Positions 7,445 to 33,108 of a DNA stretch of 62,223 nt are shown in pieces. The stretch's first letter is position 1. Every line of letters starts with the position of its first letter. Location: positions 1 through 62,223 of the forward strand of contig JABJKT010000135.1 of assembly GCA_018660225.1 (NCBI GenBank), given 5' to 3'. The notes under the pieces were generated by a model. The model was not told the DNA's origin, did no database searches, and saw only the letters and a list, made by a program, of their open reading frames with translations. This DNA is from Kordiimonadaceae bacterium (GTDB taxonomy: Bacteria; Pseudomonadota; Alphaproteobacteria; Sphingomonadales; Emcibacteraceae). The translations under genes were made by a program, and so were the position numbers.

Positions 7445-7458
7445 CGTCCGATCGCCTT

Positions 7459-9594
7459 TTATTGTTGCTTCAGTTGTTCCCAAGCACTGATGGAAGCGCG
7501 CGATACCTCCATAACCTGCTCAAACGAAATAGGTGCGGCCGTGCCATCTGAGACTGCGTCTATAAATGATTGAGCGCAGGCTTTGTGTCCCTTATCTTGT
7601 GAAAATCTACCCTTACTACTAGACGTGCCATATCCCTTTAATTTTCTAAAATTATCGAGCACGGTTGTTTTTCCCGATTGGAATATCTCAATACGTTCTT
7701 TCGCAAAGCTTTGATGCCCATTGGCAAAATAGTGAATAGTCGCGATGGAGCCATTTTCGAACGTCAGGTTTATGGTCGCGACATCATGGCAGTTATTTAC
7801 GCCGTCGGCTGTCTTAGTTCCTATTGCGGACACTTCGACAATTGGAGAAGCTATTAAAAAGCGTGCAATATCAATAAAATGGCAGGCCTCACCAATGATG
7901 CGCCCACCACCGATTTCTTCATCCTGATACCAGGTATCTTCGGAAATGTGTCCGGCGTTGCATGTATAAATTAAGCTGATGGGTTCGGATGATTTCAGAG
8001 TTTGTTTCTTCAATTTTTTCATTAAAGGTGCAAAACGGCGATTAAACCCGACCATGATTATAGGTGCATCTGATCCTTCGCCTGCTTTGCTATAGGCATA
8101 TTCAATTTCATCAAGCTCAGCCATTTTTAGTGCCAGCGGTTTTTCAACAAACACATTTTTGCCCGCGTCTAGTGCTTGGATGACAAAAGCTGCATGTGAA
8201 TTATGCTGCGTGCTTATAATAATAGTATTAATCTCAGCATCATTAATAAGTTCGTCGCTGTCAGTGGTGTTATATTCGAACTTGAATTTCCTGCCATAAT
8301 GGCTGCTCGAAACGCCTTGGGAGCTGGCAATGGTTTTTAGACGCGCCCCCGTATTACTTAAGGCCGGCAGTAAAACCCGACCGGCATAGTTACCCGCACC
8401 AATGGCACCAATCACCGGTTCTTTTGGATTATGGTCTTTTATTACATCGGAAAAAGATAGCGTTTTTTGCTGGATTGATTCATTATCACTGCTGTAGGTT
8501 ATAAAGACACCTAACGCGCTTTTATTATCGAGCAGCATGTCATAGGCTTTGGCCGCTTCATTTATACCAAAAGAACCACTTTTTAACTTGTTCACCTGCA
8601 TGGAATTTTGCGCAAGCATGTCCAAAATTGCTTCAAAATTTCTTTGTGATGTCCACCTGACGAAGCCTGCGGGATAATCCTGACCCTGTTCTTCATATAG
8701 CGGATCATAGCGACCCGGCCCGTAAGCGGAGGATACCTGAAACTTTATTTCCTTTTCGTAAAAATCAGCCCTTTGTAAATCTAGTCCGACAACGCCCACC
8801 AGAATGATACGGCCTCTTTTTCTGCACATGGTTGCCGCCTGGTGCATGGGTTCATTGCTCTTCGTTGAGGCGGTTATGATCACTCCGTCGACGCCGCGAC
8901 CTCGAGAAAAGGATCGCGCGAGCTCTATCGGGTCCTGATCCATACTTAGATTGACGGTCTCGGCACCAAATTGTTCTGCAAGAGCTAACTTATCCGGGTC
9001 AAAATCCACACCGAGAACACGGCAGCCATTTGCACGAAGAATTTGAACCGCCATTAAGCCAATCAAACCTAAACCAGTGACAACAAAGCATTCGCCGATT
9101 GTGGGTTGCGCCAGACGAATGCCCTGAAGCGCGATGGAGCCAACCACCGTATAAGCTGCAGCTTCGTCATCAACTTCATCAGGAATTTTCGCGCATAAAT
9201 GTTTCGCAACGCATACAATTTCTGCATGCGATCCATTGGAAACAACTCGGTCGCCGATTTTATAACCCTCTACACCGGAGCCGATTTCCAAAACGGTACC
9301 AACATTCGAATATCCCATTGTTATCGGTTGGTCCAGCTTAGACTTCACAGCATCAATAGTGGACACCAGTCCATCGGTTTTAATTTTATTGAGCACCATT
9401 TTCACTTTTTCAGGCTGCTGTCGCGCTTTTTCCAGATAACTTGAGCGGCCGAAGTCCACAAGCATTCGTTCGGTTCCAGCTGAAATAAGAGATCGCCGGC
9501 TTTGAATGAGTAGATGTCCTGCTTTGCATCTTGGACGAGGAACTTCAACAATGTTACTTATACCGCTTGATAGATCTTGAAGTACTTGTTTCAT
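7459..9594 (-). CDS. Two-domain oxidoreductase: zinc-type alcohol dehydrogenase fused to Gfo/Idh/MocA
   Basis: 711 residues. Residues about 1-370 are a medium-chain dehydrogenase (GYSNVGTV, then a Rossmann site with GLGLIGLMAVQIL near 174-186). After a linker, about 385-711 is a Gfo/Idh/MocA oxidoreductase with GAIGAGNYAG, FVEKPLALK and GEACHFIDIARFL. The fusion is known from many polysaccharide loci as the bi-domain oxidoreductase; its substrate has not been defined to my knowledge. The gene is the first of the minus-strand group and overlaps the widest open frame of the heparinase-like gene. A 250-base AT-rich, divergent region (9595-9844) separates it from the plus-strand glycosyltransferase and probably holds promoters for both. 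Confidence 0.92.
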   Translation of the reverse strand: MKQVLQDLSSGISNIVEVPRPRCKAGHLLIQSRRSLISAGTERMLVDFGRSSYLEKARQQPEKVKMVLNKIKTDGLVSTIDAVKSKLDQPITMGYSNVGTVLEIGSGVEGYKIGDRVVSNGSHAEIVCVAKHLCAKIPDEVDDEAAAYTVVGSIALQGIRLAQPTIGECFVVTGLGLIGLMAVQILRANGCRVLGVDFDPDKLALAEQFGAETVNLSMDQDPIELARSFSRGRGVDGVIITASTKSNEPMHQAATMCRKRGRIILVGVVGLDLQRADFYEKEIKFQVSSAYGPGRYDPLYEEQGQDYPAGFVRWTSQRNFEAILDMLAQNSMQVNKLKSGSFGINEAAKAYDMLLDNKSALGVFITYSSDNESIQQKTLSFSDVIKDHNPKEPVIGAIGAGNYAGRVLLPALSNTGARLKTIASSQGVSSSHYGRKFKFEYNTTDSDELINDAEINTIIISTQHNSHAAFVIQALDAGKNVFVEKPLALKMAELDEIEYAYSKAGEGSDAPIIMVGFNRRFAPLMKKLKKQTLKSSEPISLIYTCNAGHISEDTWYQDEEIGGGRIIGEACHFIDIARFLIASPIVEVSAIGTKTADGVNNCHDVATINLTFENGSIATIHYFANGHQSFAKERIEIFQSGKTTVLDNFRKLKGYGTSSSKGRFSQDKGHKACAQSFIDAVSDGTAAPISFEQVMEVSRASISAWEQLKQQ

Positions 9595-12558: not shown

Positions 12559-12582
12559 TTTATAAATTAGGACGTAATTTTG

Positions 12583-13278
12583 ATGAATAAAAATACTACC
12601 GTTGACTATCAGGATTGGCGTTACGAACGAAAAATTAGAGTAGATACTTTGGGCGTTAGAGGACTTGAAGCTTTAATTTTATCCAACAAGGCTTTTTTTA
12701 GAACTCTTCATGCGGAAAGACGGGTCAATAATATATATTTTGACGATGATGATTTTAATTGCTTTTTTTCTAACGTAGACGGAAATGCAGCAAGGGAAAA
12801 ATTTCGAATTCGTTGGTATGGGGATGTATTTGGAGATATTTGCAACCCCATTCTAGAGATCAAGATTAAAGACGCATTGGTAGGGTCCAAGAAAAGATTT
12901 CGCTTAAATGATTTTAATTTAAATCGGTCTATGAAAAAAAATCCTATAAAAAAGGCACTTGAAGGATTAGATACTTCACTATCTATTCGTTCAGATATCA
13001 AACGACTGCGCCCTACATTAATTAATAGTTATATAAGACGATATTATATTTCCAGTGACGGAAAATATCGCTTAACGTTGGATTATGATTTGGAATTTTA
13101 TAAATTTGAAGCGGTCAGTCGAACAATATTGAGTAAAAGAAGCCAGCCAGGTCTGGTTGTCGAGATAAAGTACGATGTAAAAGATGATAGCGGTGTTGAT
13201 GAAGTGACAAATGATCTTCTGTTTCGCATAACAAAAAATTCAAAATATGCGACCGGCGTAGAAATTACACAATATTAA
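12583..13278 (+). CDS. VTC-domain (polyphosphate polymerase-like) protein, module A
   Basis: 231 residues from the ATG at 12583 (a TTG precedes it directly). It has the triphosphate-tunnel arrangement of VTC domains: YERK near 14-17, RIR (75-77), the EIKIK strand (about 92-96), SYIRRYY, RLTLDYD, VEIKY (EIK at 194-196) and a final NSKYATG. These correspond in order to the basic and acidic residues that line the VTC4 tunnel, so the fold and probably the active site are intact. VTC4 polymerises ATP gamma-phosphate into polyphosphate; bacterial members are named after that, without much direct proof. No membrane segment, so cytoplasmic. It leads a three-gene unit with DUF4956 (75 bases later) and a CotH-like protein. 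Confidence 0.9.
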   Translation: MNKNTTVDYQDWRYERKIRVDTLGVRGLEALILSNKAFFRTLHAERRVNNIYFDDDDFNCFFSNVDGNAAREKFRIRWYGDVFGDICNPILEIKIKDALVGSKKRFRLNDFNLNRSMKKNPIKKALEGLDTSLSIRSDIKRLRPTLINSYIRRYYISSDGKYRLTLDYDLEFYKFEAVSRTILSKRSQPGLVVEIKYDVKDDSGVDEVTNDLLFRITKNSKYATGVEITQY

Positions 13279-13352
13279 TGTGAAATATTACTATTTTTAG
13301 TAAAAGATGGGTATAAAGTTTTTATTAGATTTAAATTAAAGGAAAAAGAAGA

Positions 13353-14033
13353 ATGGACAGGATCCAAACTTTTCAAGAATTTTTAGCAACGTCAAGCGCC
13401 GATGTATCGGTATTAAGCTTTATGATAAATTTGCTTATAGCGGCATTTTTGTCCAGCATTCTGGCTTGGGTTTATGTAAATTACGGAAAAGCACTTTCAA
13501 ATCGCGATAGTTTTTCGAGAAATTTTCTCATCTTATCAATGACCATCATGGTTATCATTACCATTGTGAAATCTTCATTGGCACTTTCGCTTGGTTTGGT
13601 AGGGGCGCTTTCCATCGTGCGTTACAGAACCGCAATTAAGGAACCTGAAGAGCTTGCCTACACATTTGTCGCGATTGCCATTGGTTTAGGGATGGGCGCT
13701 GATCAGGTTCTTATAACAATTTTATCCTTTACAGTAATGGTTATCTTGATCATTGTCCGTTCCAAGATAAATAAAACTTCGGTATCCGAGTTTGTGAATT
13801 TTAGAGTTTATGGTCCTGCAGATCAGGTGAATATTGAAAAAATAAACAATGTACTAGCGGGCCACACAATTGAATTAAAGCTGAAGCGTTTTGACGAAGA
13901 AGATGGCTGCGTTGAAGTTTTATACACGGCCATTTTTGGTTCAATGGACGACATGGTAGCAGCGAAAAAAGAGTTGAATGAATTAAGTTCAGATTTCAAT
14001 TTATCTTATTTTGAAAATATCGGGAGTATTTAA
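13353..14033 (+). CDS. DUF4956 membrane protein, module A
   Basis: 226 residues, ATG preceded by AAGGA. Four or so membrane helices fill the first 140 residues. The family signature runs from KSSLALSLGLVGALSIVR into YRTAIKEPEEL (73-101). The C-terminal 80 residues are a soluble alpha/beta domain ending in short strands. Function unknown; the family is often found beside VTC-domain and CotH genes. The conserved polar RYRT-IKEPEE stretch between helices could form a pore or contact site. The stop is immediately followed by the TTG start of the CotH-like gene, which implies tight coupling and fixed stoichiometry. Confidence 0.92.
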   Translation: MDRIQTFQEFLATSSADVSVLSFMINLLIAAFLSSILAWVYVNYGKALSNRDSFSRNFLILSMTIMVIITIVKSSLALSLGLVGALSIVRYRTAIKEPEELAYTFVAIAIGLGMGADQVLITILSFTVMVILIIVRSKINKTSVSEFVNFRVYGPADQVNIEKINNVLAGHTIELKLKRFDEEDGCVEVLYTAIFGSMDDMVAAKKELNELSSDFNLSYFENIGSI

Positions 14034-16613
14034 TTGCTCGTTAAGAAGGAAAATAGAACTTCGGGTGTGACAGGAATATTAGGCATTTCAGTTAAAAAAA
14101 TGTCTAAAAGCCGCTGGACGAGTATGGCCGGAATTCTGATCGTACTGTTGGTGGCGTTATCTTCGAGCGTTTATTACGGGGCACATCTCTACCGGACATA
14201 TCAGGTCTTTACGCTCTATGACATTGCCAAAGGCATAATAAATTTAAATTTTGAAATCCCAAAAAATTATTTTAAAGGCCTGATGGCGGAACCCCGTGTT
14301 ATCGTTATTGATTTTAAAAATAATGATTATCAAAAACTGGCATATTTAAGACGAACTGCGCTCGAATCCAGTGAGATGGTCATCGGCCAAGAAATTAAAG
14401 ATGAAATCGTTCCTGGAAGGATAAGATTTTTTGGCGACGAAGAAAGCATCAAAGCTGAGTTTTCTTTATCGGGGCAAAATTTTGATCACATCGGCGATCC
14501 AAACCGTTGGTCTCTTAGAGTAAAAACCAAAGGGGACAACGTTCTCGCAGGAATGAAGAAATTTACTTTGGTCGTTCCGAAAACGAGGGCTCCCGGAGTG
14601 TTTTCTGAATGGCTGAACCATAAATTTGAACAATATTTAGGGATGATATCGCTGAGATATGAATTTGTAAGGGTTGTTGTAAATGGAAAAGATATAGGGA
14701 TATTTGCTTTTGAAGAACATTTCGACAAGAGATTACTCGAAGACAATAATCACCGGGAAGGTTTGATTGTCCAAGCTAGGGGTGATGGCGGGCTAAAAGT
14801 GTTCGGTCCAACTAAAGTAGCGGAGGATCCTGCTTTACAAGCACAATGGGTTCATCTGCAATCATTATGGCAATCCTTTAGAGTTGGCGACATACCGACG
14901 AGCAGTTTGTTTTCAATTGATGAGCTTGCCAAATATTACGCTATAGCCGACCTGGTGAACGGTCAACATACCCATTACGATGGAAATGAGTTTTTCTATT
15001 TCAATCCATTGACAAGGTTATTACAGCCGATAGGCCGGGAATGGAGCTCCCCCTACAAAAAGCCATTTGAATATGGCCTGTTCATCGAAACGCTGGATCC
15101 GGCGGTGACCATTGATGCGGCAATGCCTTCCGCGGTTAAATCATTTCAGCGCCAGGTATTTGATGATGACAAATTTGTAGCGGCTTATTTTCAGGAACTT
15201 CAGCGTATTTCATCAAAAAGTTTCATAGATGATTTTCTGGAATCGGCAGCCGAAGAAATTAGCGAAGTCAGAGGAATACTCTATTCGCAATATCCCTATT
15301 TAGATATGAGTGAACAATATCTTTTTAGCCAGATGAATTATATCAACAACTTTTTGGCGGCTGATCATTCTGACTTGGTTCTAAGTTATTTTGAGAGCGA
15401 TGCTCAGGGCACGAATTCGCTGGTGATTAAAAATAATGCGCCTTTCCCAATATCATTAACGTCGCTTAATGTGGGCGCAACCTTGCTAGGTTTAGATTCC
15501 GTTGTGCCCGCCAATAGCACTACGAAATTAACAATCAATGATTTACCGCAAAATACAAGCGGCCAGGAAATGACGCTGCTTTTTGGTATGCCAGGGATAC
15601 AGAAGAGCCATATGACCACGGTATTCCCCTGGGCGGAGGGAAATGCAGCCCAGCTCAACAGCTACCCTGTGAGAGAGGGTGCGAGCGACTATGTGTTCAA
15701 GCAGGATAATCAATATATATTATCAAGCGACGGTAATCCCGTTAATATTTCCGAAAACCTGGTGGTTCCAAAAGGATATTCATTAATCATCAGGCAGGGC
15801 ACGACCATCAATCTGACTAATAATGCCACCATATTATCTTACGGCCCGGTTCATTTTGAAGGTACAGCAGAAAACCCGATTTCGGTCACATCGAGCGATC
15901 AAACAGGCGCTGGCTTAATTGTTCTGGGCGCAATTGAAAAAAGCATTGTTAACTATGCTAAATTTGATGGATTGACTGCGTACAATTCTCCTAGCTGGGC
16001 CGTATCGGCCGCTGTTTTATTTTATGAAAGTGATGTGGATATTAGACATAGCGTTTTTAGCAATAACAATTCCGAAGACAGCTTAAATATTGTGAGATCG
16101 AAATTTACTATGGACGGCGTTTTGTTTGAGGGCAGTAGGTCGGATGCGTTTGATTCAGATTTTTCAAATGGAACAATTCAATCAACCAAATTCATTAATC
16201 TTGGCAACGACGCAATTGATGCTTCCGGCTCATACATCTCATTAACTAACATTGAAATAGAAGCAGCGGGAGATAAAGGTCTGAGTATTGGTGAACGTTC
16301 CGAAATGAATGGTCGCGATATAAAGATCCAAAATTCCGGTGTGGCAGTCACAGCTAAGGATAGCTCCAGCTTTGAACTCACTGAAGTTACTCTTCGCGAT
16401 AATGACGTTGGCTTTGCGCTTTTTCAAAAGAAGTCGGAATATAGCGTGGCACAAGGCACGGTTACTGATCTTACAATGGTGAATTCTACCGAGAATTATC
16501 TGATCCAAACAGGGTCTGTACTTAGTATCGATAGCATATTAATAACGGGTGATTTAAAGGATGTTGAAGCATTAATGTATGGTGCCGTTTATGGCCGGGC
16601 GACGGTTCGATAG
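14034..16613 (+). CDS. CotH-kinase-like protein with C-terminal parallel beta-helix, module A
   Basis: 859 residues from TTG at 14034; GGGAG lies 7 bases upstream and the TTG abuts the previous stop. An ATG at 14100 is the alternative. One membrane anchor lies at about 27-47, and the remainder should be periplasmic. The CotH-like part (about 65-400) has RVKTKGDN, a conserved Glu pair at 227-228 (FAFEEHF), and a late YFNP...IGREWS segment where other CotH kinases have the metal-binding WDFD-type motif (Glu336 here). From about 545 on it is a beta-helix with an Asp-rich set: Asp704/707/709, Asp726/729 and GDKGLSIGE at 746-754. No cysteine was noticed. Homologues lie at 18487 and 22671. The substrate could be a protein or the exported glycan. 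Confidence 0.85.
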   Translation: MLVKKENRTSGVTGILGISVKKMSKSRWTSMAGILIVLLVALSSSVYYGAHLYRTYQVFTLYDIAKGIINLNFEIPKNYFKGLMAEPRVIVIDFKNNDYQKLAYLRRTALESSEMVIGQEIKDEIVPGRIRFFGDEESIKAEFSLSGQNFDHIGDPNRWSLRVKTKGDNVLAGMKKFTLVVPKTRAPGVFSEWLNHKFEQYLGMISLRYEFVRVVVNGKDIGIFAFEEHFDKRLLEDNNHREGLIVQARGDGGLKVFGPTKVAEDPALQAQWVHLQSLWQSFRVGDIPTSSLFSIDELAKYYAIADLVNGQHTHYDGNEFFYFNPLTRLLQPIGREWSSPYKKPFEYGLFIETLDPAVTIDAAMPSAVKSFQRQVFDDDKFVAAYFQELQRISSKSFIDDFLESAAEEISEVRGILYSQYPYLDMSEQYLFSQMNYINNFLAADHSDLVLSYFESDAQGTNSLVIKNNAPFPISLTSLNVGATLLGLDSVVPANSTTKLTINDLPQNTSGQEMTLLFGMPGIQKSHMTTVFPWAEGNAAQLNSYPVREGASDYVFKQDNQYILSSDGNPVNISENLVVPKGYSLIIRQGTTINLTNNATILSYGPVHFEGTAENPISVTSSDQTGAGLIVLGAIEKSIVNYAKFDGLTAYNSPSWAVSAAVLFYESDVDIRHSVFSNNNSEDSLNIVRSKFTMDGVLFEGSRSDAFDSDFSNGTIQSTKFINLGNDAIDASGSYISLTNIEIEAAGDKGLSIGERSEMNGRDIKIQNSGVAVTAKDSSSFELTEVTLRDNDVGFALFQKKSEYSVAQGTVTDLTMVNSTENYLIQTGSVLSIDSILITGDLKDVEALMYGAVYGRATVR

Positions 16614-16623
16614 TATCTGTGTG

Positions 16624-17727
16624 CTAGCGCGAGATCGCATCCAGAATGTGAAATATCTTTTTACAATTACTTGAATAGGAATAGTCACGTTTAACGATGG
16701 CTATACTTTTTTGCCCCATGGTTGAAATCTGATCGTAATCAGTTACTATTTTTTCCAACTTTTCTTGCAGTTGTTTGGGGTTTTGCGGCTGCAGCAAATA
16801 TCCGTTTTCACCCTCATCAATGGCATCTGCTATCGCCCCTACATCAGTAGCGACAACGGCTAGTCCCTGTGACATTGCCTCGATCAAGGCGTTTGGAAAA
16901 CCTTCTGCGTGGCTGGGAAAAACCAGAATATGTGACTTTTTAAACTCTTCGATTACCTTATCATGATCCAGCCAGCCCTTGAGCTCTACCCTGTGTAATT
17001 GTTTTTCTCGGATAATCTCAGAGATTGGTTCTTCGTCGTTACCGCCGCCGATCAGGTTAAAGCCACACTGCTTTAACAATTCTGAATTCTCTATCGCCTC
17101 CATAAGATCGTATACGCCTTTCTTTCTGGTTATCCAGCCAACATAAATAAATCTTATTTGATTAAAGCGGACAGGGTTTTTAGGAGGATTATCAGGAATT
17201 TTAATATTATTGGGAAGCCAATTGGCGATAAGTTTGATCCGCTGTTCAGCAATGCCGAGTTGGGTATAAAATTCAATCCATTGACTGCCTTGTGCTCCAA
17301 TAAAGGTTGGGACAGATAATAACTTTTTAGCAAATTTGGTGAACAGCTTTGATCTTTTGATGTGATCCATAAAATGGCCGGAAACTTGATATAATATGGT
17401 TGGCGTATCGCGGCGCTCTATCATTGATGATAAAACGATCCGTTCCACAAAACCCAATCCACCGCTACAAAAAATTAAGGCGCTGGAATATTTATTCGCT
17501 TTTAACATTTTTCGAAGTTCAAAAATTCGTCCAATGAAACGGACAATTTTTCTAAATATATTCGGCGGTGGAAAAGACGGGCTGTAAACATTCAATAGAT
17601 CGACATCGATATTATTCTGGCTGGCATATTCCAAAAGACCGATGGTTGCAACCATGATGCCGCCAGGGTTACCTGAGCCATGCTCCGGTTTTTGTGCGCC
17701 TATAATTAAATATCTATTTTTCGTCAT
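16624..17727 (-). CDS. Glycosyltransferase family 4 (GT-B)
   Basis: 367 residues. The start has a glycine-rich loop (GSGNPGGIMVATIGLL, about 17-32). The C-terminal half shows IYVGWITRKKGVYDLMEAI and FPSHAEGFPNALIEAMSQG followed by LAVVATDVGAIAD, a complete GT4 donor site. It is the last gene of the long minus-strand run and stops 10 bases from the convergent CotH-like gene of module A. It follows VTC module B with a 72-base gap, so it may be read from the same transcript. Donor and acceptor are unknown. I saw no terminator hairpin with a T-run in the short convergent junction. Confidence 0.9.
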   Translation of the reverse strand: MTKNRYLIIGAQKPEHGSGNPGGIMVATIGLLEYASQNNIDVDLLNVYSPSFPPPNIFRKIVRFIGRIFELRKMLKANKYSSALIFCSGGLGFVERIVLSSMIERRDTPTILYQVSGHFMDHIKRSKLFTKFAKKLLSVPTFIGAQGSQWIEFYTQLGIAEQRIKLIANWLPNNIKIPDNPPKNPVRFNQIRFIYVGWITRKKGVYDLMEAIENSELLKQCGFNLIGGGNDEEPISEIIREKQLHRVELKGWLDHDKVIEEFKKSHILVFPSHAEGFPNALIEAMSQGLAVVATDVGAIADAIDEGENGYLLQPQNPKQLQEKLEKIVTDYDQISTMGQKSIAIVKRDYSYSSNCKKIFHILDAISR

Positions 17728-17799
17728 ATTAAATTCTTTAAATTAATTGTTTTCTTTGAGCGCAGGGAAGGGGAGCTTTTCATCGAGGTTGTAGAACAC

Positions 17800-18480
17800 T
17801 CAGATATAAACCGCCCTGTCTGTAAGTGCCAATCCCAACAAATATTTTGAATTTCGCCTTGGATAAAATGGTAAAGTCCGGGCTATTCTGGAAAAGTCTT
17901 CCCGAAGCTCAGGGGGGAACTTAAACTCTACAATTTTATTTTCATATTTTCGTGTCCTAGCGGATGATACATCCTTAGATTTTCCGATATCACCGAATTC
18001 AAGATCACTATCGATGGTGATCCTGATGCCTTTACCAATTGAATAATATTCTCGCAGATAATTTATTGATAAAACAGACTTAATATCGCGACCATAGGGA
18101 GATCTTTCCAAAATATTTGGGTTTTTTCGTATTTGAACATCGAGCGATTTTGCACTCATACTCGAGAGGGAATCGTTGAAAGCATCCATTTTAATTGTTT
18201 CTTTTGAGCCTAGTCGGCCTGATTTCTTTTTAAACTCGAAATTATACGTTTGGTCTTTTAAATCAACTTCTTTCGACGGATACCACCGCAGCCGCATTTT
18301 AGTTCTATGACCGACACCCGCTAAATTATCCCGCGCGCATTCAAAATCAATTGTATCAAAATAAATAGAGCTAACAGTTCTATTCGGAAACATCTTTCGG
18401 GCGAAAGCCTGCGATAACAACCAGTTTTTAAACTGATTATATTCGTTTCTCTTTAAGACAAATTTTATTTCATATCTCAT
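17800..18480 (-). CDS. VTC-domain (polyphosphate polymerase-like) protein, module B
   Basis: 226 residues. Tunnel residues in order: Glu4/Lys6 (RYEIK), Arg63/Arg65 (RLRW), Lys84-86, Arg143 (YLREYY), Arg153 (RITID), Glu185/Lys187 (EFK) and Lys212 in NSKYLLG. All positions expected for a working VTC tunnel are present although overall similarity to modules A and C is low. No membrane segment. It starts 6 bases after the CotH-like stop, in the third position of its module, whereas the VTC gene is first in module A. Function by family is polyphosphate synthesis or another triphosphate reaction; the real substrate is unproven. Confidence 0.9.
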   Translation of the reverse strand: MRYEIKFVLKRNEYNQFKNWLLSQAFARKMFPNRTVSSIYFDTIDFECARDNLAGVGHRTKMRLRWYPSKEVDLKDQTYNFEFKKKSGRLGSKETIKMDAFNDSLSSMSAKSLDVQIRKNPNILERSPYGRDIKSVLSINYLREYYSIGKGIRITIDSDLEFGDIGKSKDVSSARTRKYENKIVEFKFPPELREDFSRIARTLPFYPRRNSKYLLGLALTDRAVYI

Positions 18481-18486
18481 GCAATT

Positions 18487-21177
18487 TTAATTCCTGGCCA
18501 TCGGACCAACACGGTATAATTCATCTACATCCAATTCGCTACCACTGATCTCAATCCCCTCTAATGTAAGCGAATTATTGCTTTGATTTAACACATCCGC
18601 TGCAGATAAATTGCTTTGTGTAATGCTCAGACTTGCACCGCCGTAAACCGGTTTTTTAATATAAGCCATTGCCGCATAAAGACCGACATTTTTCATACTA
18701 ATATTGGAAACGATTGTTGTTGAGCCGTCTTTCGAAACAATACCGGCCAAAACATCTGTGGCAGTTATGTCTGAGAAGTTTAGCTGGCTCGCTTCTCCAG
18801 AAGATATGGCTTTATCCCCCAACTTTGAAAAATGTAAGTTTGAGCCATTAATTATAGAACCGGAAGTATCAAGCCCGTCGCCGCCCAGATTTGAAAATGT
18901 GGAATTAACGATGGTTCCCGTTGAATAATCGGCATCAAAGCCGTCTGAAAAACCATCAGTTATTGCCAAATTGGCAATATCAAAATTTGAACGGACTATA
19001 TTTAATCCGTCTTCTGCCGCAGAATTTATTATCTCAATATTTTTCAGCTTAACGGCCGATTGATAAAAAGTAAGGCCTCCTGTCAATCCAAGTGATCCCG
19101 CGTGAAGCTCATTTGATCCTTCCATCACCACATTTTCAAAAGTTGATAGCGCGCTTACATTTATAACATGAATGCCTTGCCAACTATCTTCCAATGGGCT
19201 CAACTTAATGGGCTTTTCCAAAGTACCTAAAGCGTTTATTGGCCCTTCGGATAATATATAAGCCGTAGTAGCAAAATTTAATGTTGTTCCGGCTTCAATG
19301 TTCAGACTATAGCCCTTCGGAATAATTAAAGGCTCTTCAACCGTCCAGTTACCCTGTGCAATATGGATATCGTTATCAGTAAAACTTATGAAATCGAGCG
19401 TGTTTTCACTATTTAATTTTTGAATGTTAATAAAGGGATTTTCGGGGCTGCTCTGAAGTGCCAATCTGACTTTAAATGTAATTTGTTTTGCAAATAATTC
19501 TGTTTCAATTTTCAGATATGAGTTTTGCGACCACTGCAGGTCTTCCATTTTTACGAACGTCGCTACCGGCAGATCATTTTGTCTGTTTGCCGCGAGTGTT
19601 AACTGCTCATCCAATAAAAAAGTAGTTTCAACACATTCTTCGATATTTTCACAAAGTGCAGAAATGCCAACAACTTTAACCGGAAAGTCAGTTAAATTAT
19701 AAAGAGCGAGAATTCCGTCAGAGAAATATTCGGCAAATATATGTTCAGGGAAGTCCAATTCCTCTATTTTGAAGGAATAATCATTATAGTTTACCAGGGA
19801 TAAGCTTTGCTTAATATTTAGCTTTTGTAGTTTCTGGATATCCCATTGGTCTTTTGCCACCTCCTGTAGTTCAGTAATCCCCGACATGTGAAGTTGTTGT
19901 AAGTTTTTAGAAAGAACAGACAAATCAAGTTCTTCATAATCCAAGGGAAAAAACGATCTTAATCTGTCATTTTCTACGAAAACCTCATCTAAGCTGGCTT
20001 CAACAATTTTAAAGTTTTTTTCGAAATTTTTCGCGAATTCCGGTGTCTCCAGCAGCTCTATATAGAGGTTTGGATAAGCATCCAACTTTGCAGCTGAACT
20101 GGTGCTCATAAAAGCTTGATCCGTTGTAATAGGTTCAAATTTTAGTGTGTAGGGATTGAAATAGTGCCTTGTATTTGAATTGGCCAGACTATGTAAATTC
20201 CCCCACGCTACTGCGGTTATAAAAGCTTTGGAATATGCATCGACATTGAAGACCTGATCAAATTCATATTGTTTAAGTTTGTAGTGTCGAACAGAGTTAA
20301 CCGCTTGGCTGTAAAGTCTGATCATCTCCTCATTTGTGACATAACTTCCTTCTCGATATAATCCCAGTTCAACCGTATTAAATAGCTCCAGCGGAAGTAA
20401 ATTTGTTGCCTCCGAGGTTGGAACGTTTAATAGTCTGGTATTGGCAGAATTATAATACCAACCGTCCTGAGTGCCGAATTTAACAATAGGACCCTCTTTG
20501 CGACCCATCGCTTCGAGGAAATCCTTGGATGCATTTTCTTCTATATTCATTATTCCCCAATTTTCACCGTTCATGACCGTCCGGACAAATTCGTGCCGGG
20601 GCGCCAAATTACCAACCTTTCTCATTAAATACTGAAAAAGGTGATCATGTGGGAACTGTCTGGTGGACGGGCGTTGGATTGAAAAAGTGGTGATTCCTTT
20701 AAATGACGCATCATCCTTCAAGCGAACGCGGTAGCTCCATTTTGTTGGCGGTATCCAATGAGCGCCAAGATCACCCTTCAGCCTTATATCTGCCGAATGT
20801 TCCTGATCGTTGATAGTTATTTTTGCAGGATAAAATTCATGTTGGCGCAAAACTCCTTTTGTGATAGCGGCTTCACGTTCTTTACCAATAGATTTCAGGT
20901 GGCGAAATTTTATATCGATTTGCAATTTATCTTTAATCGCAGGAAAGCGTCCTTCAAAAATTACTTTAGGTAATTTAGTCAGTAAAGAGGGTCTGAATGT
21001 GGGGAATATTCCTGAAACACCACTTAAATAAAGCGAATTAACGAAATAATTAATCGACTGGGCTTTAAAGTAATAGGCGTTTTTCTCATTTAGAAAAAAG
21101 TATGCACAGTTTGCTATAAAAAAGAGAGCTAATCCGCCATATAGAACAAAACGACCTGCCTTCTGTTGATAACGCAT
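18487..21177 (-). CDS. CotH-kinase-like protein with C-terminal parallel beta-helix, module B
   Basis: About 896 residues from ATG at 21177 (a GTG lies directly before; positions below count from it). A membrane anchor at about 11-30 puts the rest in the periplasm. CotH-like features: RLKGD (133-137), YRVRL, a Glu pair at 214-215 (NIEEN) and a late segment HYFNP...FEPITTDQ with Asp354 where the metal-binding aspartates are expected. The beta-helix from about 620 on has the same Asp-rich set as module A: DGFDADYS starting at Asp746, then GDGLDTSGS and GDKAISSGE. It shares the NIVRS segment just before the first Asp motif. Gaps of about 15 and 6 bases to DUF4956 and VTC show one transcription unit. 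Confidence 0.85.
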   Translation of the reverse strand: MRYQQKAGRFVLYGGLALFFIANCAYFFLNEKNAYYFKAQSINYFVNSLYLSGVSGIFPTFRPSLLTKLPKVIFEGRFPAIKDKLQIDIKFRHLKSIGKEREAAITKGVLRQHEFYPAKITINDQEHSADIRLKGDLGAHWIPPTKWSYRVRLKDDASFKGITTFSIQRPSTRQFPHDHLFQYLMRKVGNLAPRHEFVRTVMNGENWGIMNIEENASKDFLEAMGRKEGPIVKFGTQDGWYYNSANTRLLNVPTSEATNLLPLELFNTVELGLYREGSYVTNEEMIRLYSQAVNSVRHYKLKQYEFDQVFNVDAYSKAFITAVAWGNLHSLANSNTRHYFNPYTLKFEPITTDQAFMSTSSAAKLDAYPNLYIELLETPEFAKNFEKNFKIVEASLDEVFVENDRLRSFFPLDYEELDLSVLSKNLQQLHMSGITELQEVAKDQWDIQKLQKLNIKQSLSLVNYNDYSFKIEELDFPEHIFAEYFSDGILALYNLTDFPVKVVGISALCENIEECVETTFLLDEQLTLAANRQNDLPVATFVKMEDLQWSQNSYLKIETELFAKQITFKVRLALQSSPENPFINIQKLNSENTLDFISFTDNDIHIAQGNWTVEEPLIIPKGYSLNIEAGTTLNFATTAYILSEGPINALGTLEKPIKLSPLEDSWQGIHVINVSALSTFENVVMEGSNELHAGSLGLTGGLTFYQSAVKLKNIEIINSAAEDGLNIVRSNFDIANLAITDGFSDGFDADYSTGTIVNSTFSNLGGDGLDTSGSIINGSNLHFSKLGDKAISSGEASQLNFSDITATDVLAGIVSKDGSTTIVSNISMKNVGLYAAMAYIKKPVYGGASLSITQSNLSAADVLNQSNNSLTLEGIEISGSELDVDELYRVGPMARN

Positions 21178-21195
21178 CACTTATAACTTTCATTA

Positions 21196-21864
21196 TTATT
21201 GCAATTGACGCCCATGATAAAAACTGCAGGAAATTTTTGGGTGCAATTCTTTTAATTTCGTTGAGAGGTTTTCCATGGCTTCACAATTGTCAAAATTTAC
21301 CGCCAGAAAAACCGAAGTGTCCTCGCCGCCGAAATTATAGTTTTTAATGTCCATGGAAATCGCATGTTCTTTAACACTATCAAGAATTTGAGAAATGGGC
21401 ACCTCCGTGTTGGTAAAGTCTACCAGCATATTATAATCAGTTTCAAAGGTATTGGACTTTCGCGATAGCCAAAACAGAATTAAGATCATAAGGATTACAA
21501 AAACCAGTGACGTGATGAATGTTTGATTTGCTCCGTAGCCAAGTCCCAATGAGATAGCGATGAATAAATAAACCAGTTCTTCGGGTTCCTTAATAGGCGT
21601 TCTAAAGCGGACGATCGAAAGTGCGCCCACAAGGCCGAGCGATAATGCTAAAGATGATTTAACGATTGTAATCACTAAAAACACCACAATGGCGAGCAGC
21701 GGAATTACTATACCAATATGAAATTTTCCGGATAAAGAAATAGATTTTCGAACGTAAACAGCTCTAAGAATGAAAGATGCTACAATACAGACTAGTAAAT
21801 TTATTAGCAATTCCGGGGTGTTTAATGTTTCCGCGTTCATTAATCCCGCACTTAATTCATCCAT
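21196..21864 (-). CDS. DUF4956 membrane protein, module B
   Basis: 222 residues; the ATG has a strong AAAGGAGCG ribosome site. The first 145 residues hold four or so membrane helices, with the signature KSSLALSLGLVGALSIVR then FRTPIKEPEEL at 69-97, nearly identical to module A in this stretch. The C-terminal soluble domain is much more diverged. It is the first gene of module B. The 145 bases upstream (21865-22009) are AT-rich and include a CTAATATTAG palindrome (21961-21970); a shared 9-base core of it also lies before module C. Unknown function; see the three-module finding. Confidence 0.92.
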   Translation of the reverse strand: MDELSAGLMNAETLNTPELLINLLVCIVASFILRAVYVRKSISLSGKFHIGIVIPLLAIVVFLVITIVKSSLALSLGLVGALSIVRFRTPIKEPEELVYLFIAISLGLGYGANQTFITSLVFVILMILILFWLSRKSNTFETDYNMLVDFTNTEVPISQILDSVKEHAISMDIKNYNFGGEDTSVFLAVNFDNCEAMENLSTKLKELHPKISCSFYHGRQLQ

Positions 21865-22009
21865 AAAATCGCTCCTTTTGATTAATGATTACGCTGGTAC
21901 TCTAGTTTAATTTTTTCAACAAGTTCAATATAAATGTGCTTCAAATTAGGATCTAAAAATCTAATATTAGTGATAGATATATCAAACTTCCACAATTATC
22001 TATAATAAC
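21865..22009 (-). promoter_or_regulatory. Upstream region of VTC module B with short palindrome
   Basis: 145 bases between module C's VTC stop and module B's DUF4956 start. It holds a perfect 10-base palindrome CTAATATTAG (21961-21970). The nine bases CTAATATTA recur at 25676-25684, just upstream of module C's first gene. A weak TTGATA/TAGATT pair with 16-base spacing is possible on the minus strand. The region could be a separate promoter for module B, but AT-rich DNA makes such matches common. Confidence 0.25.
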
Positions 22010-22684
22010 TTATTCTGCCGAAAGAATTAGTTTGGTGAAATTAATCGATCGGCCATATTTGGAAAAGCGGCTCTTTGTAAGGGCGATGTCTTCCGAAATT
22101 TTCAGTGCATCAAGTGTCATTGCTGACTTGAGCTCCATCACATGTGTATCATCCTGAACAGTATTTGAAATATTTAATCTATCACGATCAAAAGATTTAA
22201 CTCTTGAATACTGGATATCCATATCAAGTGTCATTCGTCTGCCGTTACCGTCTCCAAAATATTTGCGGGTATAATTTACCAGTGTGACAGGGCATAACCG
22301 TTTTACACGTGCCTGATTAATCATTGCAGTCAGTCGCGAGTCCAACGCGGCTAAGGATAAATCGTGAAAATCGGCTGATGCTTTTTGCCGGCCCGTCATA
22401 CCCGTTACCTTCATTTCATGACGAGCGGAAGATTTAAAACCGTCAAGTTTATGGTACCACCTGACACGATATTTTTGCCGCGGTACGATACCTTCTTCGC
22501 CGAGCCAATATAAATTAAATCGTAAGTAATCATAATATACGGAATAAATTTTTCGCGGCTCATATAGCGGCGTAAATCCATTTTCTTTTAATAAGGTATA
22601 AATATAGGGCAGCTTCGCTTTTTCCACTGCCCACTTTGTTTCCAGGCGAGTTTCAAAGGCACTACTAACGTCAGTAGGCTTCAA
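22010..22684 (-). CDS. VTC-domain (polyphosphate polymerase-like) protein, module C
   Basis: About 224 residues. The frame opens with TTG at 22705, but TTG at 22684 has AAAAGGGG seven bases upstream and is the better start. It still overlaps the CotH-like stop by 14 bases, so translation is coupled. Tunnel residues (numbered from 22684): ETK at 15-17, RVR (73-75), Glu90/Lys92 (HEMK), Arg140 (YTRKYF), Arg150 (RMTLD), Glu184/Lys186 (ELK) and a final FSKYG. All match the VTC pattern. It is the most diverged of the three VTC proteins by eye. Cytoplasmic, no signal peptide. Confidence 0.87.
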   Translation of the reverse strand: MKPTDVSSAFETRLETKWAVEKAKLPYIYTLLKENGFTPLYEPRKIYSVYYDYLRFNLYWLGEEGIVPRQKYRVRWYHKLDGFKSSARHEMKVTGMTGRQKASADFHDLSLAALDSRLTAMINQARVKRLCPVTLVNYTRKYFGDGNGRRMTLDMDIQYSRVKSFDRDRLNISNTVQDDTHVMELKSAMTLDALKISEDIALTKSRFSKYGRSINFTKLILSAE

Positions 22685-25040
22685 TGGTTGACCCCTTTTG
22701 CGCAAATATTTTCAAGCCACATGAATTTAATAAGGCTTGCGAAGTGATAACTGCACCACCATTATATTCTTGTTTTTTTCTGTAGCTTTCAAAACAATTC
22801 CCATAAGTATCTATGGTACCGTCGCTCACATTCAGGTAACCACCATCCTTGGCAACAGCACCGAGTTGAGAATTTTTAATATCAACAAGGTTAAAGTAAG
22901 CATTCGCTTCCTCACCTACTGAAATCGCTTTATCCTGGCATCGCTCGGCAACAAAACTTTCAATTCTGTAAGTTCCGCTCGACAGATCAATACAGTCATT
23001 GTGAGCAGATGATACAATAACATTTTTAAAGGTTAAGTCGGAATAATCCGAATCTATCGCGTCAGCGCCGATATTTTTGATATCTAGCAAATTAACGGTT
23101 CCATTAACCCTGACCAAATTTACGCCATCTTCGCAGGCAGCATTATTGACGTGCACATTTAAATTCGAAAGCTCGCCGTCAAAGAACGACAGGCATCCGG
23201 TCACCAGAGAGCGGTTATAGCGTATCTCGGTGGGAATGATTGTACTTTGTCCCTCAAAATTAAATGTAGCACCATCAGGCACGTCTCCTGTAACAACGAC
23301 GCGACCGACTTGCCCGTTTTCTTCTTCAGAAACGATGTTGATTTCCAGGGGCAGGGGAGTTTGTTCGCCAGAGAAGCTGAGAAAGTGTGTTTGCCCCGCC
23401 GGGACATTTAATTCCATGCTTGTTTCAATATCTGAAGTGTACGCGATATTGCGAATTCCATTGTCCAGAATAAGATTTCCATCGCTTGAGATGGAAAAAT
23501 TTCCAATTGAAGGAATTGCTTCACCGTCTTCACTGGTAGGTTTTTTAAATACTTCGGAAATATCTTTGCCCTGCAAATGGGAGCATTGCGTGTTTAAGTT
23601 GGAATTACTTAACGAAATTTTGCAATGACTATATTGGTTTTTTGAAATATCAAATCCTGTAAACTCGAAGGTCCCTTTTGTTCTGTCGGATAAATATTCA
23701 ACAAGATTTATTTCAGCGCTAAAGCCGTCTTTTTCAAATTCATTTTCTGGCGATGCGTTATTCTGCATCACCGTTAATATATCAACATAGTGATTAAACG
23801 CATTTTCGATCTTTGAGCGGGGAAAATTTCCACCGCGTTTTTTGTATTTATCAAATACAACATCGAGAAAAGCCGAATTTGAAAAATTGTTGATGGCATT
23901 TTGGATGTCCTGAGTAGGGAAATAGTGTGCGGGAAGTGAACTGGCGAAATTTTCAGCTGAGGTCGATAAAGCTTTGTCAATTTCTATATCCCCATCATAA
24001 TAAATAGGCACCAGTTTTTGATATAACGGGTCGTAATAAAATTTGCGGTTTATCGGTAGCAATCCGTGAGAGCCAGACATCAATTTTGAAAGAAGAAAAA
24101 ACAAACTTTCGCGTTCAATCAATTGATTGCTTGCTTTAAGTGCTTCGATTGTAATGAGTTCTTGTCTGTGTCCATCGATAAGATAATTAAAGAAAAGCTT
24201 GTTTATAAGCGTCAATGCGTCAAGGGTGATTGATCTGGAAATTGGATTATCTGCCCATGAGCCATTTTCAGGAAGCGCAAAGCTCTTCGATTCAATCCAT
24301 TCGCCGTCCACGGTGGCATTACTATCCTGAAATGGCACCATATCCCAAATTCTACGATCATCCCCTTCTACCATTATTGATTCACGCTGCAGAAATGCTT
24401 CTATCATTTCCTTGGCAGGCACTTCCTGATAAAGGTATAAATCCTCAGAATCTTCCATTTTTACATTTATAAAACGGGTCTCGGGCGCAATGAAGTCAAA
24501 TTCTCTAAAGATAATCGTCGAGAGGATTTCATTGTCAGCATTGCGGGTCTCGGGCAGTAATAGTTTGAATTTTACGACGTTGTTAATATTCTCATCTTTT
24601 AAATTCACAGCGAGCGAGCTGTAAAAATTTCCAGATGAATTTTGCGCAATATGATCTTTCCAATCGCCGGTAATGCGAATTTTTGCAGTATCTGAACATT
24701 TTTTATTCTCATCAATCCAATTAATCTTCGCTTTAAATTTCTTTTTATATTCCGGGGCAATATTTGCAGAGCGATGCACGAATGCTTTGAAAAGATTTAC
24801 CCGCCATTTTTTAGATTTTGAACGTGATAAAGAAATGGAAATTTCGTCAGGAAACGCAGAATCCCTTAGCCTCTCTGTTCCCATAGAAGAAAAAGAGACT
24901 GGCACACAGCTAGGATCAAGAAAGTCCTCCTCAGCTAATAGCAAGTTCGAGCTGAGTAAATATATAAAAAGAACTAATGCCCCAAAACCTGAATGGAACT
25001 TTGAAGAACTCTGTTTTCGGACTTGATTATTTTGAGACAT
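22671..25040 (-). CDS. CotH-like secreted protein with C-terminal beta-helix, module C
   Basis: 789 residues with a cleavable-type signal peptide (hydrophobic 19-36, then AEEDFLD), unlike the membrane-anchored partners in modules A and B. CotH-like features: RITGD (122-126), Glu206 (LYQEVPA), and YYDGD with Asp349/Asp351 near the site of the canonical metal aspartates, so this copy looks the closest to a working kinase site. The beta-helix part carries NLVRV, DAIDSDYS (Asp660/663/665), NDCIDLSSG and QDKAISVGE. About ten cysteines in the mature region suit a periplasmic disulfide-bonded protein. The ATG overlaps the end of the DUF4956 gene by 67 bases; no later start would keep the signal peptide, so the overlap is real. 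Confidence 0.82.
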   Translation of the reverse strand: MSQNNQVRKQSSSKFHSGFGALVLFIYLLSSNLLLAEEDFLDPSCVPVSFSSMGTERLRDSAFPDEISISLSRSKSKKWRVNLFKAFVHRSANIAPEYKKKFKAKINWIDENKKCSDTAKIRITGDWKDHIAQNSSGNFYSSLAVNLKDENINNVVKFKLLLPETRNADNEILSTIIFREFDFIAPETRFINVKMEDSEDLYLYQEVPAKEMIEAFLQRESIMVEGDDRRIWDMVPFQDSNATVDGEWIESKSFALPENGSWADNPISRSITLDALTLINKLFFNYLIDGHRQELITIEALKASNQLIERESLFFLLSKLMSGSHGLLPINRKFYYDPLYQKLVPIYYDGDIEIDKALSTSAENFASSLPAHYFPTQDIQNAINNFSNSAFLDVVFDKYKKRGGNFPRSKIENAFNHYVDILTVMQNNASPENEFEKDGFSAEINLVEYLSDRTKGTFEFTGFDISKNQYSHCKISLSNSNLNTQCSHLQGKDISEVFKKPTSEDGEAIPSIGNFSISSDGNLILDNGIRNIAYTSDIETSMELNVPAGQTHFLSFSGEQTPLPLEINIVSEEENGQVGRVVVTGDVPDGATFNFEGQSTIIPTEIRYNRSLVTGCLSFFDGELSNLNVHVNNAACEDGVNLVRVNGTVNLLDIKNIGADAIDSDYSDLTFKNVIVSSAHNDCIDLSSGTYRIESFVAERCQDKAISVGEEANAYFNLVDIKNSQLGAVAKDGGYLNVSDGTIDTYGNCFESYRKKQEYNGGAVITSQALLNSCGLKIFAQKGSTIEAY

Positions 25041-25642
25041 GTAAGGGCCTCTTCCATGGTTTTAAATTGGATTATAATATCGATAGTTTCATCCTGCTTA
25101 TCTTCATCAATATGACTTGAAACGCTGGAAATTTTATCCATCGGTATTTCAGATGGGATTTCAAATTTAGAGGAAATTATTTGTAACAGTAATTGCACAG
25201 GACTTTCAGAAAATTCCATTTTCGAAGACGCTTTGCCGCCAATTAAATTCAGGAAAAAATCTAAAATATTCATAGTAGAAGGAGTGACCGCAGCTAAAAT
25301 TGCCAAACTAATTCCATATTGCGGAGAAACCCCAACGGAAATGCCAATAATGAGATAACAGAAGAAAATGACTAGCTCAAATGGATTTTTAATAGGCGTT
25401 CTGAAACGAACAATGGATAAAGCACCGATCATTCCGAGCGAAAGAGCGAGGTTAGAGGAAATAGTCCATGTTATAATCAATCCTGCCGGTGGTAAAAGAA
25501 ACGCCGAATATCTTTGTGAACTAAGTCGTGCCCATGTCTGACCGCCAAAAGATATTGCGAGGTTAACAAACAGTCCTAAAACTGCTGCACTAATGATCGC
25601 CAAATAATGATTTTCTGCAAGCAATGTATTTAAATAATTCAT
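24974..25642 (-). CDS. DUF4956 membrane protein, module C
   Basis: 222 residues, first gene of module C. Four or so membrane helices precede and include the signature SNLALSLGMIGALSIVR then FRTPIKNPFEL (62-90). Compared with modules A and B, the Lys before the signature is missing (ISSN instead of VKSS) and EPEE has become NPFE. The C-terminal soluble domain is about 80 residues and its last 22 codons are shared, in another frame, with the start of the CotH-like gene. A TATAAT box lies at 25681-25686 on the minus strand, about 40 bases upstream of the ATG; no good -35 partner is visible. Confidence 0.9.
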   Translation of the reverse strand: MNYLNTLLAENHYLAIISAAVLGLFVNLAISFGGQTWARLSSQRYSAFLLPPAGLIITWTISSNLALSLGMIGALSIVRFRTPIKNPFELVIFFCYLIIGISVGVSPQYGISLAILAAVTPSTMNILDFFLNLIGGKASSKMEFSESPVQLLLQIISSKFEIPSEIPMDKISSVSSHIDEDKQDETIDIIIQFKTMEEALTCLKIIKSENRVLQSSIQVLGH

Positions 25643-25706: not shown

Positions 25707-27164
25707 TTAGGACCTAAGCCGAGCCAGTAAATATTTTCTCTCTTGAGCGCTACTACCTATAAACAAAATGAAAATAATCGATATGAACATAAAAAGATAG
25801 AACAAAAATGAATTAAATATATCTATTACCAGACTTTGGCCTAATGTAAATAAAAGCCCTAACAGCATTGCTAAAAAGGGCCGTACCAGTGAAAATCTTA
25901 ATGAATAGCTATAATAGCCCAATGCAGTCATGGAAATGGCCTGTGAAAGATATCCTAGAACAATACTTATAGCCGCCCCCATCAGCCCGTATATTGGTAA
26001 TAATAAATATATCCCGATAAATGTCGTGATGAGCTGAACCAGATAACTGCTTAAGTCATAAACGGGTTTTTTTGCGATAAATGATCCAATGCCAGTAATC
26101 CAGCCTGCGCCTTGAATTATTATGCCGTAGGCCAAAAATATTGATAATCCAGCCGCTTCACTATATTGCTCGCCAGCAAGCAGGGGAACAAACCAGTTTG
26201 CACACGCGCTGAAAATAATAAATAGGACCGCACCAAACACACAGTAGCTTCGCAAAATAAGATCAAATGAGTCCTGCGCATCATCGGTCTTATAGGTTGA
26301 CATATAAAATGGTCCCCAGGCGGTTTGAAAAGCGGTCGTGCCAACCCTGAATAAATTGGCCACTCTGTTTGCCACGGCATAAATTGCTATGGCCTCAATA
26401 CCCAGGCTTTGTGAAATCATACTGCGGTCTACGGAAGGCACTAGATTTGCAGATAAGGATATTATCCCGTAGGGGATGCCAAATGTGAATAGGGCGCGAA
26501 TGATTGGCGCTGTGGCGATGCGTCCGAACCAGCCTCTGCATAAGAATAACCCAAAAACGGCAAATAAAAGCAATGCACAGCATTGTAACACCAATATGCT
26601 CATGAGCGGATTTTCAAAAAAGTATGCACCGATAAGTGCGGCAAAAATGATGCAGGTTGATGATCCCAATGTCAGGTAGGCAAACCCGTTGCGCTCGTAG
26701 CTCCACTTCATCAAATTAATGGAATAATTCAGTGGTATGGTGAGGAATATTTTTAACGCCAATATCCACATCAGTGGCTCGTATATGGGTGGTACGCCAT
26801 AAATTGCCATTATCTCGCTGCGAAAATATAATAATCCGCCAATCACGAATAAACCGAGCGTTAATTGCACTAACAGGGAAGATGTGCAGATCGCCTTTCT
26901 AGCATTTATGTCCTCATCGTCATAAAAATAACGCGCAAGGGCTGAATCCTGTCCCATTATCGATAAAAATACAAAGAGCATTTCGACCACTAAAAATAAA
27001 TCGAGTACGCCGAATGTTTCTTTACTGAGTAGTCTGGTTAAAAAAGGAAAAGTAAGAATAGAAGAAAATCGCCCCAGCGCAGCCAATCCTCCGTAAAAGA
27101 AGGCATCCTTGGCCAGAAACTTTAAACGATAACCAACAGAAGACGATTTCAGTTTTTTATTCAC
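25707..27164 (-). CDS. Wzx-type polysaccharide flippase
   Basis: 485 residues, GTG start, with twelve to fourteen hydrophobic helices spread over the whole length. The N-terminal pattern (FLAKDAFFYGGLAALGRFSS, then LTRLLSKETFGVLDLF) is typical of the oligosaccharide flippase/MATE-like family. It moves the undecaprenyl-linked repeat unit across the inner membrane. It lies between the methyltransferase gene and VTC module C, on the same strand as both. With the Wzz-like protein at 44845 and the candidate polymerase at 11000 it completes a Wzx/Wzy-type export route. Confidence 0.93.
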   Translation of the reverse strand: MNKKLKSSSVGYRLKFLAKDAFFYGGLAALGRFSSILTFPFLTRLLSKETFGVLDLFLVVEMLFVFLSIMGQDSALARYFYDDEDINARKAICTSSLLVQLTLGLFVIGGLLYFRSEIMAIYGVPPIYEPLMWILALKIFLTIPLNYSINLMKWSYERNGFAYLTLGSSTCIIFAALIGAYFFENPLMSILVLQCCALLLFAVFGLFLCRGWFGRIATAPIIRALFTFGIPYGIISLSANLVPSVDRSMISQSLGIEAIAIYAVANRVANLFRVGTTAFQTAWGPFYMSTYKTDDAQDSFDLILRSYCVFGAVLFIIFSACANWFVPLLAGEQYSEAAGLSIFLAYGIIIQGAGWITGIGSFIAKKPVYDLSSYLVQLITTFIGIYLLLPIYGLMGAAISIVLGYLSQAISMTALGYYSYSLRFSLVRPFLAMLLGLLFTLGQSLVIDIFNSFLFYLFMFISIIFILFIGSSAQERKYLLARLRS

Positions 27165-30340: not shown

Positions 30341-30377
30341 TAAATTCAATCTATTTAAATTTTTACTCAGTAGAAAG

Positions 30378-32288: not shown

Positions 32289-32325
32289 ATAAAACCTTCT
32301 ATACTTTATTCATTTTAATATTGCA

Positions 32326-33096: not shown

Positions 33097-33108
33097 ATTT
33101 AACCTTTC

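Follow-up and report, generated by a model that had tools for sequence, protein, structure and literature searches.

In a 62,223-nucleotide stretch of DNA from a Kordiimonadaceae bacterium (assembly GCA_018660225.1, contig JABJKT010000135.1; the whole stretch is called the window here), three modules lie close together, and every one of them encodes a protein with a VTC domain, a membrane protein of the DUF4956 family and a large exported protein, in which a CotH-like domain is combined with a right-handed beta-helix. This trio is a true conserved cassette, found in at least ten phyla. Tentatively, and with somewhat less than even confidence, we read it as a VTC-type machine, split over separate proteins, that would make polyphosphate, move it across the membrane and deliver it to the extracytoplasmic CotH-like/beta-helix protein.

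A conserved cassette in at least ten phyla

Linkage of the three families was surveyed in a sample of 299 genomes, all belonging to the same phylum as the window genome. All 11 VTC genes above the cut-off have a DUF4956 gene within 4.1 kb, and only one of the 12 DUF4956 matches stands without VTC. A search with the profile of the CotH/beta-helix protein, made independently of VTC and DUF4956, finds seven full-length copies in five of these genomes; all seven lie inside VTC-DUF4956 pairs, and about fifty orders of magnitude separate them from the next match. Plain CotH is more loosely associated: 26 of the 299 genomes carry CotH, 21 of them without VTC, and therefore a tie to the VTC-DUF4956 pair is confined to the beta-helix type. 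The same count led us to reject the idea that an exported CotH always needs VTC. Large CotH proteins (many of about 1500 amino acids) in some twenty related genomes (family f29, genus g63), which contain neither VTC nor DUF4956, represent a different CotH context.

The DUF4956 motif, used to scan GTDB contigs, yielded 80 loci, from Bacteroidota, Chloroflexota, Planctomycetota, Verrucomicrobiota, Pelagibacteraceae and Myxococcota as well as Nitrospinota, Margulisiibacteriota, Calditrichota, Omnitrophota, Acidobacteriota and others. After addition of nine loci from the phylum survey, all three families are present in 44 of the 84 loci with a hit and VTC plus DUF4956 in 17 more, many of the surveyed contigs being short or cut, which limits counts of complete trios. 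The recurrence of the trio in other genomes, which a preliminary description of the window had mentioned, is thereby borne out. Two loci encode two different CotH/beta-helix proteins each, one in a proteobacterial metagenome-assembled genome (L032:3541-9440) and one in a metagenome-assembled genome of the Deltaproteobacteria/Myxococcota (L058:5290-11987).

The neighbourhood as such is already published, and the variant described here consists of beta-helix CotH-like proteins with a substituted catalytic residue, present in three sets. According to one study, CotH, a poly-phosphate polymerase and DUF4956 (with or without DUF4832) are encoded by accessory genes adjoining pelDEADAFG in streptococci, clostridia and bifidobacteria (PMC7112168), and there, too, the three families stand side by side in an exopolysaccharide locus. 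Unlike this cluster, the window contains neither pel genes nor DUF4832 among the genes scanned on both sides of the trio, has three sets instead of one, and its CotH-like proteins carry a beta-helix and a His at the position of the catalytic Asp. In NELoc-2 of Clostridium perfringens, the published gene order is VTC, 'tubulin/FtsZ', resolvase, VTC, 'tubulin/FtsZ', CotH (PMC2879425); by position and size, we infer that 'tubulin/FtsZ' is the DUF4956 gene. With two VTC sets and a CotH in one locus, NELoc-2 is a precedent, but a Gram-positive one, with two sets versus three and a single CotH of 497 amino acids, too short for a beta-helix. The available portions of the literature naming DUF4956 assign no function to it.

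Composition of the three modules

Each of the three modules contains the trio that the preliminary description had proposed, as confirmed by Pfam, alignment and a family profile, and the coordinates given there are correct to within a start codon (the VTC gene of module A starts at TTG 12580 or at ATG 12583).

12580-16613, plus strand: module A, in the order VTC, DUF4956, CotH-like
12580..13278, plus strand: A VTC-domain protein, 232 amino acids (Pfam VTC 6.6e-29; tunnel residues intact)
13353..14033, plus strand: A DUF4956 membrane protein, 226 amino acids (Pfam DUF4956 7e-18)
14034..16613, plus strand: A exported CotH-like/beta-helix protein, 859 amino acids (Pfam CotH 6.8e-7; family profile 2e-250)
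21864-17800, minus strand: module B, in the order DUF4956, CotH-like, VTC
21196..21864, minus strand: B DUF4956 membrane protein, 222 amino acids (Pfam 3.3e-17; AlphaFold2, predicted local distance difference test (pLDDT) 87)
18487..21180, minus strand: B exported CotH-like/beta-helix protein, 897 amino acids (Pfam CotH 3.5e-8; AlphaFold2 model)
17800..18480, minus strand: B VTC-domain protein, 226 amino acids (Pfam VTC 1.2e-24)
25642-22010, minus strand: module C, in the order DUF4956, CotH-like, VTC
24974..25642, minus strand: C DUF4956 membrane protein, 222 amino acids, diverged (Pfam 5.4e-6, below cut-off; invariant motif kept)
22671..25040, minus strand: C exported CotH-like/beta-helix protein, 789 amino acids, highly diverged (alignment; family profile)
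22010..22705, minus strand: C VTC-domain protein, 231 amino acids (Pfam VTC 2.8e-18)

Pfam recognises seven of the nine proteins: the VTC proteins of A, B and C (PF09359; 101.6, 87.6 and 66.8 bits, cut-off 23), DUF4956 of A and B (PF16316; 65.4 and 63.2 bits, cut-off 30.6) and CotH of A and B (PF08757; 29.5 and 33.8 bits, cut-off 23.8). The DUF4956 protein of module C, whose gene overlaps the next one by 67 bp, stays below the cut-off with 26.7 bits, and its CotH-like protein has no Pfam match. The latter is homologous over its full length by alignment and is found by the family profile, which includes C itself, at 5e-70 for the CotH part and 6e-60 for the beta-helix.

The VTC tunnel, described as intact in all three modules, proved to be so: the equivalents of Vtc4 K200, R264, R266, E426 and K458 (numbered by our own mapping of chain positions, with an offset of 3 in 5iiq) do not vary among A, B, C and 33 aligned bacterial VTCs. 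Substitutions R264A/R266A/E426N have been used to inactivate the yeast VTC complex (PMC9911596). A profile of the bacterial proteins matches Vtc4 chains at about 1e-13. The VTC proteins of the window comprise 226-232 amino acids, and the VTC domain fills the whole protein, with no SPX or membrane domain on the polymerase chain.

DUF4956 carries the invariant motif LALSLG..GALSIVRFRT.IK, also present in module C. The model of the B protein consists of five helices followed by a C-terminal beta-alpha-beta-beta-alpha-beta domain (residues 140-220), which resembles ACT and other ferredoxin-like folds; the PDB matches listed are those of this ACT-like domain. R86 and R88 (B numbering) occur in 52 of 52 DUF4956 sequences and K92 is Lys in 51 of them. 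The invariant residues belong to the membrane part and its cytoplasmic border, and the ACT-like domain is poorly conserved. In Chloroflexota (L056:9314-10660, L065, L069, L075, L077), a signal peptide and a secreted domain, in L056 resembling 3-keto-disaccharide hydrolases, are fused to the N-terminus; this secreted fusion, together with five helices, places the N-terminus outside and the ACT-like domain inside. A sequence relationship of DUF4956 with VTC was considered and rejected. Comparison with MgtC (PF02308) gave a Pfam E-value of 0.06 for A and a profile-profile probability below 1%, the MgtC alignment being small.

The third protein has an N-terminal membrane segment or signal. In the B model, the CotH-like domain spans residues ~80-440 and the beta-helix ~595-885, with pLDDT above 90 across most of 600-890. 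The fold of the former is that of the Bacillus spore CotH kinase (PDB 5jd9/5jda; PMC7821199), 5jd9 aligning at Z 26.7 and a root mean square deviation of 3.1 over 311 residues. All three window proteins and 45 of 53 relatives, however, have His instead of the catalytic Asp228 of this kinase, whereas Asp is retained in 12 of 13 plain CotH proteins encoded at similar loci, in some cases by the same operon. The mutation D228Q inactivates B. subtilis CotH (PMC7821199). At the metal-binding position Asp251, B and C have Asp, as the Bacillus enzyme does, and A has Glu (of the 53 relatives, 40 have Asp and 8 have Glu). The substitution by His is a consistent replacement and not decay, and the view of these proteins as kinases of the ordinary CotH type, as envisaged earlier, is not supported. 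They further differ from Bacillus CotH in being exported, in the N-terminal segment and in the C-terminal beta-helix.

The beta-helix is the best-conserved part of the protein. At least 80% conserved (B numbering) are D724, N727, D746, D749, D751, D768, D771, S773, D789, K790, S793, E796, K817, D818, K842 and K843, which form an Asp-to-Lys ladder (DgLN, DgFDxD, DglDxS, DKaiSxGE, KD, KK); conservation has a 22-residue period, with an autocorrelation of 0.50 versus a maximum of 0.35 in 2000 shuffles. Module C, whose branch amounts to 4.3 changes per column, nevertheless keeps every one of these ladder residues, while retaining only 16 of 31 conserved CotH positions and thus losing about half. 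Taken together, a topology spanning the inner membrane, as suggested in the preliminary description, is well supported: VTC is soluble, DUF4956 has five helices and a cytoplasmic ACT-like domain, and the CotH-like/beta-helix protein is exported.

Possible functions of the cassette

Each module may correspond to the eukaryotic VTC machine, divided among separate bacterial proteins and extended by a part outside the cytoplasm. From its intact catalytic residues, the soluble VTC protein is predicted to be a cytoplasmic enzyme that converts ATP into polyphosphate or a short phosphoanhydride chain. DUF4956 would dock VTC and pass the chain through the membrane past R86, R88 and K92, which we infer to sit on the cytoplasmic side, the point of entry for a phosphate chain arriving from VTC; in yeast VTC, transport of the chain depends on basic residues of the membrane helices (PMC9911596). 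The outer protein would bind and use the chain, its straight ladder of Asp, Ser and Lys being suited to a linear polymer, and in some lineages an exported metallophosphoesterase and a pyrophosphatase would cut the product to phosphate. With the yeast complex (Vtc1/Vtc3/Vtc4; PMC9911596, PDB 7ytj, 8i6v), the cassette shares a homologous tunnel polymerase domain with its catalytic residues, and the yeast membrane helices with their essential basic residues have a counterpart in DUF4956. It differs in that the polymerase is separate and soluble, without SPX or membrane helices, and in the additional outer CotH/beta-helix protein; the likeness of DUF4956 to Vtc1 and the membrane part is one of proposed role.

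Independent support for the phosphate theme of the preliminary description comes from neighbouring genes in other genomes. Counting as neighbours genes on the same strand and within two genes of the cassette, a metallophosphoesterase family, whose members are exported or lipoproteins, occurs 13 times beside it versus 9 times elsewhere in the loci (p 1.6e-7), and family I inorganic pyrophosphatase 4 times versus 2 (p 0.003); each of these six pyrophosphatases has a signal-like or lipoprotein-like N-terminus. Such neighbours are seen in several phyla, with gene orders such as DUF4956, CotH/beta-helix, VTC, pyrophosphatase, phosphoesterase (L073) or, in a distant member of the Pelagibacteraceae (L093), phosphoesterase, DUF4956, CotH/beta-helix, VTC, pyrophosphatase. 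A Pho4 phosphate transporter is near the cassette in two cases. Extracytoplasmic pyrophosphatase and phosphatase make sense if a phosphoanhydride reaches the outside. In the exported metallophosphoesterases (L078:8990-9919, L073:15003-15893 and relatives), A/L-G-H replaces the D-x-H of the first metal motif, and GD and GNHD remain.

Several points weigh against a polyphosphate synthase and translocator. Similar residues also occur in tunnel enzymes that work as hydrolases or cyclases, and polyphosphate synthesis by bacterial VTCs of this group is a prediction from their residues. These proteins also have one Glu of an acidic patch (RYExK) that Vtc4 lacks, such a patch being characteristic of tunnel hydrolases (PMC4641920), and therefore sequence alone cannot fix the VTC reaction. 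The DUF4956 pore is putative, and the cytoplasmic domain of this protein may have a regulatory role. In the list of structural matches, the beta-helix fold is seen most often in enzymes that act on sugars. Neither a phosphatase nor a pyrophosphatase gene belongs to the modules of the window, and the sole PF00719 pyrophosphatase of the window genome has no export signal, the accessory enzymes therefore not being obligatory.

Phosphorylation of a glycan is unlikely but the strongest of the other explanations: VTC would supply a phosphate donor, with which the CotH/beta-helix protein phosphorylates the polysaccharide of the locus, the three modules corresponding to three sites or linkages. All three modules indeed lie inside a Wzx/Wzz-type glycan locus, the beta-helix fold is nearest to AlgG and other sugar enzymes, and in streptococci and clostridia the trio with plain CotH is located beside pel genes (PMC7112168). 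Against this, the catalytic Asp of CotH is absent, and in other genomes the neighbourhood of the cassette shows no enrichment of glycan-type genes (odds ratio 1.0), with none in 38 of 56 long loci, by a narrow probe covering only the glycan families of the window itself and a few GT2 proteins. In one member of the Pelagibacteraceae (L054) and in Dokdonia (L043), the cassette adjoins housekeeping genes. A general link with glycan loci was consequently rejected as a rule, within the limits of this probe; the earlier connection to glycan export is not supported, and the glycan-independent alternative raised at the same time fits the neighbour survey better.

A sensing device, rather unlikely in our view, would have VTC working as a phosphohydrolase or a cyclase; the ACT-like domain of DUF4956 would detect the product, and DUF4956 would pass a signal to the outer protein, with no polymer crossing the membrane. 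Binding of small ligands is common among ACT-like folds, and the acidic-patch Glu mentioned above would suit it (PMC4641920), but the invariant DUF4956 residues are found in the membrane part and its cytoplasmic edge instead of the poorly conserved ACT-like domain, and the exported phosphatases are left unexplained. Doubtful, too, is a more specific proposal, in which the CotH-like/beta-helix protein would be an extracytoplasmic phosphotransferase using exported polyphosphate instead of ATP, with the His as acid-base or phospho-acceptor and the ladder as polymer track. It is improbable that the beta-helix is an AlgG-like glycan epimerase, lyase or binding module on exported polysaccharide, merely regulated or energised by VTC and DUF4956. 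AlgG is the top match of the B beta-helix in the PDB (Z 27.2, root mean square deviation 3.0, 278 residues), but many unrelated beta-helix enzymes reach Z 22-27 in the same list, the DPHD epimerase motif of AlgG/AlgE is not in the conserved ladder, and the cassette has no general tie to glycan genes.

Bacteria are thought to make polyphosphate by PPK enzymes, and no established bacterial polyphosphate exporter is known. PPK1 is encoded in the window genome, and VTC is therefore not needed for cytoplasmic polyphosphate. If the synthase and translocator exist as proposed, the cassette, from SAR11 to Bacteroidota and Chloroflexota, would bring phosphate polymer or phosphoryl energy to the cell surface, and a polyphosphate-driven phosphotransferase, if real, would explain how an enzyme of kinase fold works outside the cell without ATP. 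Direct and cheap tests are offered by the change from Asp to His, seen in a defined subfamily of CotH, and by the association with exported pyrophosphatase.

Origin of the modules and their locus

The three VTC and three DUF4956 genes are the only ones in the whole 3.04 Mb genome, and all are situated inside one 13-kb stretch; by simple arithmetic, the chance of two modules landing within 13 kb of the third is about 2e-5. Module B groups with alphaproteobacterial modules in the DUF4956 tree (support 100/85) and in the CotH/beta-helix tree (100), and the large protein of module A groups in the latter with Saprospiraceae/Cytophagales (99). Module C groups with none in either tree and has a long branch, its exact place being unsure. 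Long DNA-level repeats between the modules were looked for, and none were found. Local triplication was rejected on the basis of the separate tree positions and the lack of repeats, and the sets go back to separate acquisitions or to old lineages. The term 'paralogous', used for them in the preliminary description, calls for care: they are homologous sets that stem from different sub-lineages. Coming from separate tree groups, the modules therefore came together in a variable locus and did not arise there; the three diverged versions were probably collected in this surface-glycan locus for different surface substrates.

None of the 59 genomes examined from this genus, family or order contains DUF4956, and the modules are therefore a local acquisition of the species or the locus. 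A lone DUF4956-like protein without VTC or CotH (L026:8980-9678) is encoded in one genome of the same order (G250). Searches for possible carriers gave no match of the module B protein in plasmids and none of the module A protein in phages, and no structured RNA or tRNA was found at the locus.

Scans of the protein families on both sides of the modules identify the window as a Wzx/Wzz-type surface-polysaccharide locus, with the following genes among others:

1098-1769: initiating sugar transferase
5534-7483: heparinase-like enzyme
16624-17727: glycosyltransferase gene, separating modules A and B
25707-27164: flippase
44845-45801: Wzz-like protein

Further glycan genes of the window encode aminotransferases, epimerases, glycosyltransferases, an amidotransferase and formyltransferases. 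A WbpG-like, amidotransferase-type protein (29195-30349) is encoded near HisF-like (32326-33096) and HisH-like (33109-33765) proteins, all within 29195-33765 on the minus strand; as in other wbpG/hisH/hisF sets, these genes presumably serve to amidinate a glycan sugar. Two genes with formyltransferase domains (35042-35851 and 37951-38886) suggest N-formylated sugars.

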